Origin: a virus
Length of the DNA: 43,178 nucleotides
Direction: 5' to 3' (one strand)
IMG/VR virus record: IMGVR_UViG_3300027844_002548
Coordinates: 1-43,178 of that record
A program made the translations under genes and the position numbers. Shown one piece after another: positions 26,376 through 29,738 of this stretch (its first letter is position 1; every line of letters starts with the position of its first letter). Below the pieces are notes generated by a model. It was given only the letters and a program-made list of their open reading frames with translations, was not told the DNA's origin and did no database searches.

Positions 26376-26395
26376 TCATTACAAATATATATCTT

Positions 26396-26403
26396 GGTAA
26401 ATA
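26396..26403 (+). promoter_or_regulatory. Late-promoter-like octamer before the CCA-adding-type gene
   Basis: GGTAAATA on the plus strand, one mismatch from NATAAATA, then exactly 5 bases and the ATG at 26409. The spacing equals that of the minus-strand leaderless late promoters. Confidence 0.4.
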
Positions 26404-26408
26404 TATGT

Positions 26409-27605
26409 ATGAGAGCATTAGAATTTTTAGTTGAGGCACAAGAAAAACTAGATAGTGACGAATTTAAACAAATTCTTACTGCTGGTGTAGTTTCACTCGG
26501 TAACCTTTTTCATAAAAACGGATTTGAACTACGTATTGTTGGTGGTGCAGTTCGAGACCTAATGCTTGGCAAATTGCCCAAAGATACAGACTTAGCATCA
26601 GATGCTACACCAGACGAAATGGTTGAAATGTTTGAAAAGGGCAATATTAAGTATATTCCAACAGGATTACAGCACGGAACAATTACCGCTGTAATTAATA
26701 AAGAACAATTAGAAATTACAACGTTACGTGCAGACGCAGAACATACTGGTAGACACGCTACTGTTGAATTTATACGTAGTTGGGAAGAAGATGCTAAACG
26801 CAGAGATTTAACATACAATGCTATGTCATTAGATTTAGACGGTACAGTATATGATTATTTTAATGGAGCAAATGACTTACAAGATAAAGTAAGTAAATTT
26901 GTAGGTGAACCGGAACAACGTATACAAGAAGATTATTTAAGAATTTTGCGCTACTTTAGATTCCAAGGACGCATTAATAATCCTACTTGGGAGAAAGATA
27001 CATTAGATGCTATAAAAAGCAATGTTAAAGGTTTAACACAAATTTCTGGTGAACGTATATGGATGGAAATGCAAAAGATACTGTTAGGTAACAATGTAAA
27101 AGACATATTAGTACATTTAGAAAAAACAGGCGTTACAAAAAATATTAATCTACCATTAGATGATATTGCACTAGCAGAAAAAGTTAGTACAATGCAAAGT
27201 CCTATTGTTCCTTTAGCAAGTCTTATGCGTAATATAAAAGATGTAGACGCGATAGGTAATGCATGGAAACTATCAAATGCAGAAATGCAACTTTTATCTT
27301 TTTTAACTGAATTTAAAAATACACCTCTAACACAGCAAAGTGCAGAAGAATTTTTAGTTGATGAAACTCATCAATATTTTGTTTATGCTCTTGCTAAAAT
27401 ACAAGACAAAGATGCTATTGCAAATCATATTAGAAGTTGGCAAGTACCAGAATTTCCTGTAACAGGAAAAGACTTAATTAGTGCAGATGTAAAACCTGGT
27501 CCTAACATGGGTGCTTTACTAACAAAGTTACGAGACGAATGGAAGTCTAAAAACTACAAACCTAGCAAAGAAGAATTATTATCAACAGTGATCGATGAAC
27601 GGTAA
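26409..27605 (+). CDS. CCA-adding enzyme / poly(A) polymerase family protein with capsid-targeting-like leader
   Basis: A 398-residue class II nucleotidyltransferase. RIVGGAVRDLMLG (GG at 45-46, RD at 49-50), DTD (D59, D61), TTLRADAE, RRDLTYNAM (131-139), EDYLRILRYFRF and SGERIWMEM are the ordered motifs of bacterial tRNA nucleotidyltransferases and poly(A) polymerases. It would add CCA (or A) to RNA 3' ends. The ATG at 26409 is used; an in-frame TTG at 26394 is less likely. The leader MRALEFLVEAQEK fits the capsid-targeting pattern, and LVE|A fits the prohead protease site. It is on the plus strand, convergent with the tRNA and synthetase genes. Confidence 0.85.
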   Translation: MRALEFLVEAQEKLDSDEFKQILTAGVVSLGNLFHKNGFELRIVGGAVRDLMLGKLPKDTDLASDATPDEMVEMFEKGNIKYIPTGLQHGTITAVINKEQLEITTLRADAEHTGRHATVEFIRSWEEDAKRRDLTYNAMSLDLDGTVYDYFNGANDLQDKVSKFVGEPEQRIQEDYLRILRYFRFQGRINNPTWEKDTLDAIKSNVKGLTQISGERIWMEMQKILLGNNVKDILVHLEKTGVTKNINLPLDDIALAEKVSTMQSPIVPLASLMRNIKDVDAIGNAWKLSNAEMQLLSFLTEFKNTPLTQQSAEEFLVDETHQYFVYALAKIQDKDAIANHIRSWQVPEFPVTGKDLISADVKPGPNMGALLTKLRDEWKSKNYKPSKEELLSTVIDER

Positions 27606-27876
27606 AGATCCATACGATTATAGTAGGCAAATACAAACTGGTAAAAGTATGGGCGAGTTCGGAGATGTAGATACAACACGAACCATAGGAAAACAAGGAT
27701 GGAAAGTAAAAATAGAGACAAACCCAAGAAAGAAAAAAAGAAGCCGAAGAAGCCTAAGTCTTAAAATTAAAAACTGGCTCCGGAGGAAGGATTCGAACCT
27801 TCACGCCCTGCCAAGGACACTGAGTAAACCGCCCAGCATGTCTACCAATTCCATCACTCCGGAACAAATTCTTTAG
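27595..27876 (+). CDS. Possible small basic protein, antisense to a tRNA in its second half
   Basis: An open frame of 93 codons whose ATG overlaps the end of the CCA-adding gene by 11 bases. Residues 1-50 look protein-like (DPYDYSRQIQTGKSMGEFGD, then GWKVKIETNPRKKK). From about residue 62 the frame runs antisense through the tRNA gene, and that part is probably not under protein selection. A second frame offers a 21-codon Lys/Pro-rich peptide ending at 27762, so a -1 shift near 27700 could end the real protein there. Treat it as a doubtful gene. Confidence 0.35.
   Translation: MNGKDPYDYSRQIQTGKSMGEFGDVDTTRTIGKQGWKVKIETNPRKKKRSRRSLSLKIKNWLRRKDSNLHALPRTLSKPPSMSTNSITPEQIL
27775..27863 (-). tRNA. 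Class II tRNA with anomalous anticodon loop (GUU at the anticodon position)
   Basis: An 89-base tRNA with encoded CCA. Acceptor stem UCCGGAG/CUCCGGA pairs fully, discriminator G73. The D arm contains GAAUUGGUAGA. The anticodon stem is CUGGG/CUCAG and the T arm GAAGG-UUCGAAU-CCUUC. The long variable arm (UGUCC-UUGGCA-GGGCG) and D loop are of the tRNA-Leu kind. The anticodon loop is CGGUUUA (27825-27831). Positions 34-36 read GUU (Asn), but position 33 is G rather than the near-universal U, and position 37 is U rather than a purine. G73, U1-A72 and GUU agree with bacterial tRNA-Asn. All stems are intact, so decay is unlikely. It starts 9 bases after the synthetase-like stop codon. Confidence 0.85.
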
Positions 27877-28703
27877 AACAAGTTACACATTTCCATTGCA
27901 CGAATAAATCTAGTCATTCCAATGCCGCCGCCTACACGTGGTATAAAATCATGACTTAAAAATTCGTCCAATTCTTTGTTAACTCTGTCCTTGCCAAACG
28001 TTCCATGCAACAAACTAGCATATTGCCCATCACTAATTGTGTGAAACATATCATGCATTTCTGTTGTATCTGCTGACCGTTCTGCAGAACCAATTGTTTC
28101 TTGTCCACAAATAATTACATCAATTTTTGCGGCTGTTCCATCACCATTTTGTTTCATGTTCCAAAATGGACTTGTGTAATTTGGAAAGTTTCGAATCATT
28201 TGTACATTACCGTACTTTTCATACATTGCAGTTTCTTCTGCATGTGTTAATTCTTCAACGCCAAATTCCGCTGACCAATCAGTGTAATCTTTTGATGTAA
28301 TTGCATCAATTGATGAAAAGCCTACTGCTTCGCATAAATCCAATTCCATTCGATATAAGTCATTAATATCCCCTGGCATTTCGAATTCAAACATAGGAAA
28401 TATAAGATCATGCCTACCAGGTATAGCATTAGGCTCTTGCCTATATGATGTTGAGACACAAAAAAAGCCCGGAACCTCAGGCTTAGTAAGTAACTCGTAT
28501 TCTAACCACATCTGTCCTGTTTGCGGTAACGGCCAAACTTGGCCGGCGTAATTATATGTTGAGACAGTTGTTGGATCTTCGCATGCCGCTAATATACTTA
28601 AACGATTTTGCGTATGTACTTCTTGAAATCCTTTGTTCAAAAAAAAGGACCGTAAACGGCCCACGCTATCCGTGAATTTCTCCGGATTAATAAGTTGTGT
28701 CAT
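27873..28703 (-). CDS. Truncated class II AsnRS/AsnA-like synthetase
   Basis: A 276-residue catalytic core of the Asp/Asn class II synthetase family. Visible are FFLNKGFQEV (motif 1 region, 20-29), SYRQEP with RHDLIFPMFEFE (motif 2, R88, E90, R97), KIDVIICGQETIGSAERS (193-210, the AsnRS-like GEIIGGSQR region) and VGGGIGMTRFIRAME (motif 3, R265). The GGGIG form also resembles asparagine synthetase A. The N-terminal OB-fold anticodon-binding domain of AsnRS is absent. It should activate an amino acid with ATP; transfer to tRNA or ammonia cannot be decided. A late promoter (28761-28768) precedes it, and the tRNA follows in the same transcript direction. Confidence 0.8.
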   Translation of the reverse strand: MTQLINPEKFTDSVGRLRSFFLNKGFQEVHTQNRLSILAACEDPTTVSTYNYAGQVWPLPQTGQMWLEYELLTKPEVPGFFCVSTSYRQEPNAIPGRHDLIFPMFEFEMPGDINDLYRMELDLCEAVGFSSIDAITSKDYTDWSAEFGVEELTHAEETAMYEKYGNVQMIRNFPNYTSPFWNMKQNGDGTAAKIDVIICGQETIGSAERSADTTEMHDMFHTISDGQYASLLHGTFGKDRVNKELDEFLSHDFIPRVGGGIGMTRFIRAMEMCNLF

Positions 28704-28775: not shown

Positions 28776-29738
28776 TCAATAACCGTAAGGTATAATTACA
28801 TAATGTATTGCCAATACTATTCCAACTGAAACTATTAATCCTAACATCATTTTAAGAAAGTCTCTTCCTACAATTGGAAATACGTGCTTGAATTTATAAT
28901 TTTCCATAACAGTTGATATAGCAAGTTCTCGTCCACATAGCAATCCAACAAACACCCAAGTTGTACTCATAGGAATGTCATTTAATTCTTTAAAGAATAA
29001 CAATATGAATGCATAAACTAAATTAATTATTGTTGCTGATCGAACATACCTAGTGCCTGTTTTTTCTAAAACAATTTCTTGAATTTTGCCGCCATGTTCT
29101 CGAAATGTATATCCTAAGAACACTACAAATACAACAGATATAAAAAGCATCCATTCTATAGACAATGCTCGTGGGAGGAATACAGCAATATTTGCCATAT
29201 CGTGTGATAACCAAGTATACCATAAAAACCCAGTTGTGCCCCATTGAGCAACACGCCAATATCTTTTATGGTGTTCTTTTACTTTATCATGTTTTTCATC
29301 AATTAATCGTTCTAAAACAATCCATAAACAATACGCAACAACTGCGGCCAATGCATAACCCATAACAGATTTTACAAGCATTTTTTCCAATACAAATGTA
29401 CTAGCAAATGCCGATAACACTAGGAATGAGGTTGAAACTGGAACGCCTATTCGCGTTAACAATAAAAGTATGGCTGGTGCTGTAGCATGATACCATTGCA
29501 CTTCTTGAAATGGTATTTTATTTAATCTACCAAATGATATATCACCTGCATTAATATACCACCCATACCACATAGTTATTAATAGACCAATCGAAGCGGC
29601 GGCCCATAAAGTATACCATTTAAATTTTTCTGAATTTGATGCTAGCCATGGACCTAAGGTTTGTACACTATCATTAGCAACAACAGAATATGCGGCTAAC
29701 ATAAAACCTAGGATCATCCATAACAAAGTTATATCCAT
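28776..29738 (-). CDS. PiT-family phosphate permease
   Basis: A 320-residue integral membrane protein with about nine hydrophobic segments. Family signatures are AYSVVANDSVQTLGPWLAS near the N-terminus (the GANDxxN-type repeat), VSTSFLVLSAFAS, LSHDMANIAVFLP and IPMSTTWVFVGLLCGRELA, which are the two inverted PiT repeats. It would import inorganic phosphate (ion-coupled) into the host during infection, meeting the phosphate demand of DNA replication. Phage- and virus-borne phosphate transporters are known from marine systems. A weak GGAG precedes the ATG, and the terminator at 29755-29789 separates it from upstream transcription. No clear promoter of its own is visible. Confidence 0.82.
   Translation of the reverse strand: MDITLLWMILGFMLAAYSVVANDSVQTLGPWLASNSEKFKWYTLWAAASIGLLITMWYGWYINAGDISFGRLNKIPFQEVQWYHATAPAILLLLTRIGVPVSTSFLVLSAFASTFVLEKMLVKSVMGYALAAVVAYCLWIVLERLIDEKHDKVKEHHKRYWRVAQWGTTGFLWYTWLSHDMANIAVFLPRALSIEWMLFISVVFVVFLGYTFREHGGKIQEIVLEKTGTRYVRSATIINLVYAFILLFFKELNDIPMSTTWVFVGLLCGRELAISTVMENYKFKHVFPIVGRDFLKMMLGLIVSVGIVLAIHYVIIPYGY

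Follow-up and report, generated by a model that had tools for sequence, protein, structure and literature searches.

A phage-encoded AsnRS-type catalytic core and its companion tRNA with Asn identity: a possible tRNA-dependent entry into pyrimidine synthesis

The tRNA and its partner gene in the window

The window, a stretch of viral DNA analyzed over its full 43,178 nucleotides (IMG/VR record IMGVR_UViG_3300027844_002548), contains a tRNA gene and a protein-coding gene that ends 9 nt upstream of it on the same strand. The features considered here are the following:

27775..27863, minus strand: tRNA gene with Asn identity (U1-A72, G34U35U36, G73), from ARAGORN, a family alignment and covariation
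27825..27831, minus strand: anticodon loop, C32 G33 G34 U35 U36 U37 A38, with the register set by covariation
27873..28703, minus strand: AsnRS-type class II catalytic core without an anticodon-binding domain (P0001; PHROG 29758), from PF00152, an AlphaFold2 model and a structure match

ARAGORN assigns 27775-27863 on the minus strand as tRNA-Asn(gtt). The acceptor stem (UCCGGAG/CUCCGGA) is followed by G73, the CCA end is encoded at 27775-27777, and the anticodon stem (CUGGG/CUCAG) contains a single G-U pair. The body is Leu-like and of type II, with a Leu-like D arm and a variable arm of 17 nt in place of the short type I variable loop of bacterial tRNA-Asn. Like its family, the tRNA has the identity features of bacterial tRNA-Asn (GUU, G73 and U1-A72), and it lacks U33 and A37 (the t6A site) of the bacterial decoding loop: the loop at 27825-27831 reads TAAACCG on the plus strand and CGGUUUA in the RNA, with G33, the anticodon GUU and U37. 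The original prediction, made from the letters alone, had described a loop without U33 or a purine at position 37; it is confirmed at exactly these coordinates, and it was also accurate on the acceptor end, the D loop of Leu type, the variable arm of 17 nt and the lone G-U pair in the anticodon stem.

The loop register is confirmed by covariation in an alignment of 51 homologous tRNAs. An alternative stem that would give a normal Leu anticodon is ruled out, with the anticodon stem 99.6% paired and all five of its pairs covarying among the 51 homologues. An assembly error behind the odd loop is argued against by contigs from other samples (L002, L003), which have the identical gene pair and loop. 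At the gathering threshold Rfam gave no match anywhere in the window, and the single, unmodified tRNA sequence does not have a cloverleaf as its minimum-energy fold.

The partner gene, which the original prediction did not mention, encodes a protein of 276 residues. P0001 matches the Pfam family PF00152 (tRNA-synt_2, class II D, K and N synthetases) with an E-value of 1.4e-11 (44.4 bits, cut-off 25) and falls in phrog_29758, annotated as of unknown function. Its NCBIfam matches all lie far below cut-off, and are to AsnRS, AspRS, asparagine synthetase A and LysRS; P0001 scores 24.9 bits against an AsnRS equivalog cut-off of 414, and 17.7 and 16.8 bits against PRK06462 (archaeal asparagine synthetase A), where the cut-offs are 322 and 389 bits. 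A phmmer search of PDB sequences with P0001 gave no match; profiles did match. The AlphaFold2 model (pLDDT 92.9, pTM 0.90) has as its best structural match the catalytic domain of AsnRS (8h53; Z 28.2, rmsd 2.0, 246 residues aligned). Since residues 4-6 of the model align to the start of that catalytic domain, the N-terminal OB-fold anticodon-binding domain of AsnRS is missing.

P0001 has the motif 2 and motif 3 arginines of a class II D, K, N core. The motif 2 residues R88, E90 and H98, as well as R209 and the motif 3 residue R265, do not vary among 55 sequences from phages and cells, so adenylation looks intact. Two further positions differ from AsnRS in HMMER alignments: the motif 1 proline aligns to an invariant Gln32, and the glutamate of RHLxE to Ile101. 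In AsnRS, this glutamate is taken to read the Asn amide. The two replacements suggest that the amino-acid pocket is changed, and, given Ile101, the substrate may not be plain Asn.

On the other side of the tRNA, a CCA-adding enzyme encoded at 26394-27605 on the plus strand (PolyA_pol head domain, 6.4e-35) faces it, though the tRNA encodes its own CCA; in relatives of the P-SSM2/P-SSM7 type, CCA is not encoded. The gene upstream of the pair, at 28776-29738 on the minus strand, encodes a protein distantly similar to phosphate permeases (PHO4 at 29 bits, under the cut-off). L016 and L022, both of which are without the tRNA, seem to have a frame similar to this PHO4-like protein directly after their copy of the partner gene.

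The gene-tRNA pair and the tRNA family in viruses

Five IMG/VR scans, with up to 80 of the matches listed kept from each, and five phage records gave at least 326 viral loci with at least 232 distinct genes. The tRNA lies downstream of the gene in 177 of the 232 distinct genes listed; it is absent from 45, and the remaining 10 have less than 300 nt of downstream sequence. Gene and tRNA are always on the same strand, with an offset of -2 to 224 nt (median 16 nt). A tRNA finder that uses structure only, run from -30 to 260 nt after the gene, found 180 tRNAs, 177 of which agree with the family sequence criteria; as just three were dropped, the pairing is not a product of these criteria. The viruses with the pair number in the hundreds and are mostly marine. 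No recurrent third gene was found beside the phage pair, the commonest neighbor family occurring in 15 of 96 clusters.

Among named phages, the gene is found in Prochlorococcus phages P-SSM2, P-SSM5 and P-SSM7 ('tRNA ligase', T4-GC 194), and it also occurs in huge uncultured phages (735 and 484 kb). In one of the phage records (L083, AY939844.2), we find the tRNA directly after the 'tRNA ligase' gene, at L083:4814-4899; the annotated tRNA-Asn at 164094-164179 is about 2 kb away, and its coordinates look stale. In L392, the tRNA found 38 nt after the gene, in the place usually taken by the special one, is a normal tRNA-Leu(UAA), which hints at the origin of the Leu-type body.

Family statistics were taken from 151 distinct tRNAs, for which G73, U1 and G34U35 formed part of the selection. 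G34 and U35 are present in 151 of 151, U36 in 148 (C36 in 3), G73 in 151 and U1-A72 in 150. The chimera that had been proposed from the window alone, a Leu body with Asn identity, fits this conservation. Position 37 is U in 134, A in 10, C in 4 and G in 3, so that the purine is lost in 138 of the 151; position 33 is U in 118, A in 16, C in 15 and G in 2. U33 and a purine at position 37 occur together in 12 of the 151 family members, compared with 75 of 77 other distinct tRNA calls from the same loci, and the two exceptions among the latter look like false calls. The predicted loss of loop features is therefore real, with a different reach for its two halves: U37 is a family trait, and absence of U33 is specific to lineages (33 of 151). 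On a quick protein tree, the non-U33 label changes 11 times, with at least seven changes forced by well supported branches, which points to repeated loss of U33 within the family. The alignment of 51 sequences has standard pairs in 97.4% of its paired cells and double changes at 22 of 24 pairs, and in the first 108 family members the variable loop ranges from 6 to 38 nt. An Asp anticodon (GUC) with G37 replaces GUU-U37 in 3 of the 151 tRNAs (L012, L026), from which Asp may serve as well as Asn.

According to PMC9976931, bacterial Asn identity is transferable by the anticodon and G73, U1-A72 confers amidation of Asp-tRNA(Asn), and in yeast t6A37 blocks aspartylation. Since the identity set is kept and R37 and U33 are not, the family appears to retain what charging needs, with determinants suited to host AsnRS or ND-AspRS and to GatCAB, and to have lost what the ribosome requires; decoding would be poor. 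The phage enzyme is without an anticodon domain, and the fixed anticodon is probably best explained by another protein, a host synthetase, reading it. The suggestion in the original prediction that the tRNA has been released from ribosome use fits this pattern, and we consider off-ribosome use somewhat favored.

Pyrimidine genes around phage and cellular relatives

No pyr gene match was found in the window. Elsewhere, a pyr gene lies within 1 kb of the gene on the same strand in 10 of the 232 viral loci listed. L338 and L323 have the order pyrD, gene, tRNA and pyrE-like phosphoribosyltransferase on a single strand; further tRNA genes lie in the gap after pyrD. In three distinct contigs (L289, L292 and L293), pyrD is located 63 nt upstream of the gene. 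A pyrE gene is found in L107, L112, L129 and L165, and the two that were scanned (L107 and L165) are over the cut-off of TIGR00336; L044 has a short pyrE-like gene. Pfam gave no match for the short proteins of L338 and L044, which are called pyrE-like for their similarity to the pyrE-like gene of cellular operons.

These short proteins belong to a phosphoribosyltransferase-like family of 130-159 residues at the pyrE position (L338:5935-6327, L323:5935-6327, L044:2323-2754 and L197:7413-7892), which is accompanied by a short PyrD of 229-236 residues. Possibly, these are minimal versions of OPRT and DHODH associated with this route.

A profile scan of GTDB contigs gave 125 cellular relatives, of which 80 loci were kept. 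Near the gene in these 80 loci are pyrF (21), pyrD (19) and pyrE (5). The taxa include Patescibacteria, Aureispira, other Bacteroidota, Pasteurella atlantica, Midichloriaceae and others; a few appear to be phage contigs within MAGs (L172, L173, L180 and L236 have the tRNA). In the L197 locus of Pasteurella atlantica, pyrF comes 1 nt after the end of the gene and a pyrE-like gene comes next; pyrD lies upstream, on the opposite strand. The Pasteurella protein falls inside the phage clade on the tree, as does that of a Rhodospirillaceae MAG, and neither has the special tRNA nearby. The best 30 loci from cells and huge phages (26 genomes or records) yielded no special tRNA with the covariance model R1, which scores tRNA-Leu highly and hence discriminates poorly; ordinary tRNA-Leu and other normal tRNAs were found. 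The Patescibacteria gene has conserved synteny with dnaX (L175, L176, L184, L187, L191, L192, L195, L198, L224 and L246) and, in most, with a dus-like gene; a tRNA-Gln, also with U1-A72, lies 1.2-5.4 kb downstream.

Cellular genomes with the gene mostly lack the first enzymes of the pathway. Among 16 such genomes, with absence calls that rest partly on MAGs, PyrB is over cut-off in 2, PyrC in 2 (6 at E<=1e-3), CarB in 2 and PyrD in 14, and in 14 control genomes PyrB and CarB are over cut-off in 14 of 14 and PyrC in 11. This is the distribution of an alternative source of dihydroorotate, found together with PyrD and in place of CarB, PyrB and PyrC, with the exceptions of G004 (PyrB and PyrC), G010 (CarB only) and G013 (all three, PyrB and CarB as partial matches). 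In the order of G012, the gene is present in 8 of 248 genomes, and we compared these 8 with the first 20 listed of the 240 without it. PyrB was found in 0 of 8 versus 16 of 20 (plus one partial), CarB in 0 of 8 versus 16 of 20 (plus one split) and PyrC over cut-off in 0 of 8 versus 16 of 20 (Fisher p=1.6e-4 for each, uncorrected for relatedness). Of the 8 genomes with the gene, 7 retain PyrC-like paralogues that score under the cut-off, so the product in some genomes could be carbamoyl-aspartate. In Pasteurellaceae, PyrB is found in 0 of 140 genomes and the gene in 3 of 140; apparently, a lineage that had pyrD/E/F but lacked the entry enzymes acquired this single gene. From the cellular evidence, the enzyme probably makes CarAB, PyrB and PyrC dispensable.

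A possible role in pyrimidine synthesis

De novo pyrimidine synthesis is taught as a single conserved route via carbamoyl phosphate and carbamoyl-aspartate. The link of the enzyme to this pathway appears well supported by genomics, and a pyrimidine role is probable; tRNA dependence and the chemistry are what we infer. We hypothesize that an AsnRS-derived, class II adenylating enzyme that lost its anticodon-binding domain supplies dihydroorotate, the substrate of PyrD, in place of CarAB, PyrB and PyrC. The most plausible reaction would be asparagine + bicarbonate + ATP -> dihydroorotate, in which the side-chain amide of Asn would give N3 and C4, and bicarbonate C2. This would be the simplest route because Asn already holds N1, C4-C6 and N3, and only C2 is missing.

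The cellular pyr evidence and the phage tRNA evidence would both fit if the enzyme acts on tRNA-bound Asn (or Asp). The host would charge the phage tRNA with Asn via the kept identity set, either by AsnRS or by AspRS followed by GatCAB. Loss of R37 and U33 would keep the tRNA from decoding and available to the phage enzyme, for which the charged tRNA would be the bound form of the amino acid, as substrate or carrier. Cells and huge phages would use ordinary tRNA-Asn, and other phages would bring a tRNA that translation cannot drain. That phage gene and tRNA form a two-part cassette for pyrimidine synthesis is, in our estimate, an even bet. In the full proposal, the AsnRS-core enzyme would use bicarbonate and ATP to convert the asparagine bound in Asn-tRNA to dihydroorotate, many bacteria would rely on it instead of CarAB-PyrB-PyrC, and marine phages would carry it together with a dedicated Asn-tRNA unusable by the ribosome. 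We put this forward tentatively, at somewhat below even chances. Counting against the cassette are the 12 of 151 tRNAs that keep both U33 and R37, the restriction of the pyr link to 10 of 232 phage loci, and the presence of the gene alongside PyrB and PyrC in G004. The tRNA would not be needed universally, since 45 of the 222 viral genes that can be judged have none nearby, and ordinary Asn-tRNA would have to replace it there.

The special tRNA did not turn up in the cellular loci covered, so that it may assist the enzyme without being essential to it. The enzyme would then make dihydroorotate from a free amino acid, much as archaeal asparagine synthetase A produces Asn, and the phage tRNA would serve separately, for example as a sensor, a transcript spacer or an Asn store. 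The occurrence of the enzyme without the special tRNA in cells and huge phages, and the Pasteurella and Rhodospirillaceae copies inside the phage clade with no such tRNA nearby, agree with such a division, as does the match of the fold to archaeal asparagine synthetase A, which has no anticodon domain (3reu, Z 24.7). We regard it as unlikely all the same, as it leaves unexplained why 177 of the 222 judgeable viral copies retain the tRNA, and why Asn identity was kept while decoding features were lost.

The retained motif 2 and 3 residues and the GUU anticodon would also suit a translation pair, in which a mini-AsnRS charges its own tRNA for AAC/AAU codons and the altered loop resists anticodon nucleases of host defense. 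Altered loops can evade tRNA-targeting defenses. Reading of ANN codons involves t6A37, however, which the 138 of 151 tRNAs without R37 could not carry; the conserved anticodon could not be read by an enzyme lacking the anticodon domain; and the relatives in cells are located in pyr operons and occur to the exclusion of PyrB. These points make a translation pair quite improbable. Slimmer still are the chances of an off-ribosome pair that works outside pyrimidine synthesis, with the charged tRNA donating Asn or Asp to a peptide, lipid or base: the tRNA features and the 222 of 232 phage loci without a pyr gene within 1 kb would allow it, but no other transferase family recurs beside the pair among the neighbor families listed, and gene context in cells and in some phages speaks for pyrimidines. 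Phage attachment sites often contain pieces of tRNAs, but the reading of this tRNA as a host tRNA copy that is decaying or marks an attachment site is ruled out for practical purposes by the covariation that maintains all helices and by the fixed identity bases.

If the pyrimidine proposal is correct, a single AsnRS-like enzyme replaces the first three enzymes and constitutes a second pyrimidine route, which would explain how lineages with pyrD/E/F and no pyrB live. Phages would feed the replication of their genomes outside host control of ATCase, and, if the paired tRNA is the substrate, a tRNA would have been selected for nucleotide synthesis and not for translation.

In the mostly open-access journal literature covered by our search, neither this pair nor a pyrimidine route that is tRNA-dependent or AsnRS-like is described. 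The records of P-SSM2 and P-SSM7 contain the same gene and the neighboring tRNA-Asn (60.9-62.4% identity), as annotation with no function beyond the name 'tRNA ligase'. In picocyanobacteria, an asnB-pyrB2-pydC cluster is described as a possible alternative pyrimidine pathway (PMC10119275); it is another gene set than the phage pair.

Compared with AsnRS, the phage enzyme shares the fold of the catalytic core (8h53) and the invariant R88, E90, H98 and R265, and differs in the missing anticodon-binding domain, the score below the equivalog cut-off, Gln32 at the motif 1 proline and Ile101 at the RHLxE glutamate. Archaeal asparagine synthetase A, an AsnRS paralogue without the anticodon domain, is likewise a stand-alone AsnRS-like core of similar length, but matches by profile at E 3e-4 only, and the phage-type enzyme sits with pyr genes; we know of no tRNA partner of the archaeal enzyme. 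With CarAB-PyrB-PyrC, the enzyme shares the place before PyrD, as judged from genome context and mutual exclusion, although here one unrelated enzyme would stand for three. Charged tRNAs serve metabolism in GatCAB amidation, in the conversion of Glu-tRNA to a tetrapyrrole precursor and as cell-wall tRNAs; to our knowledge, there is no pyrimidine-making example. The phage system would resemble these in using a charged tRNA as an off-ribosome substrate, and has U1-A72 as in GatCAB substrates, but it differs in its dedicated phage tRNA with a Leu-type body and U37.
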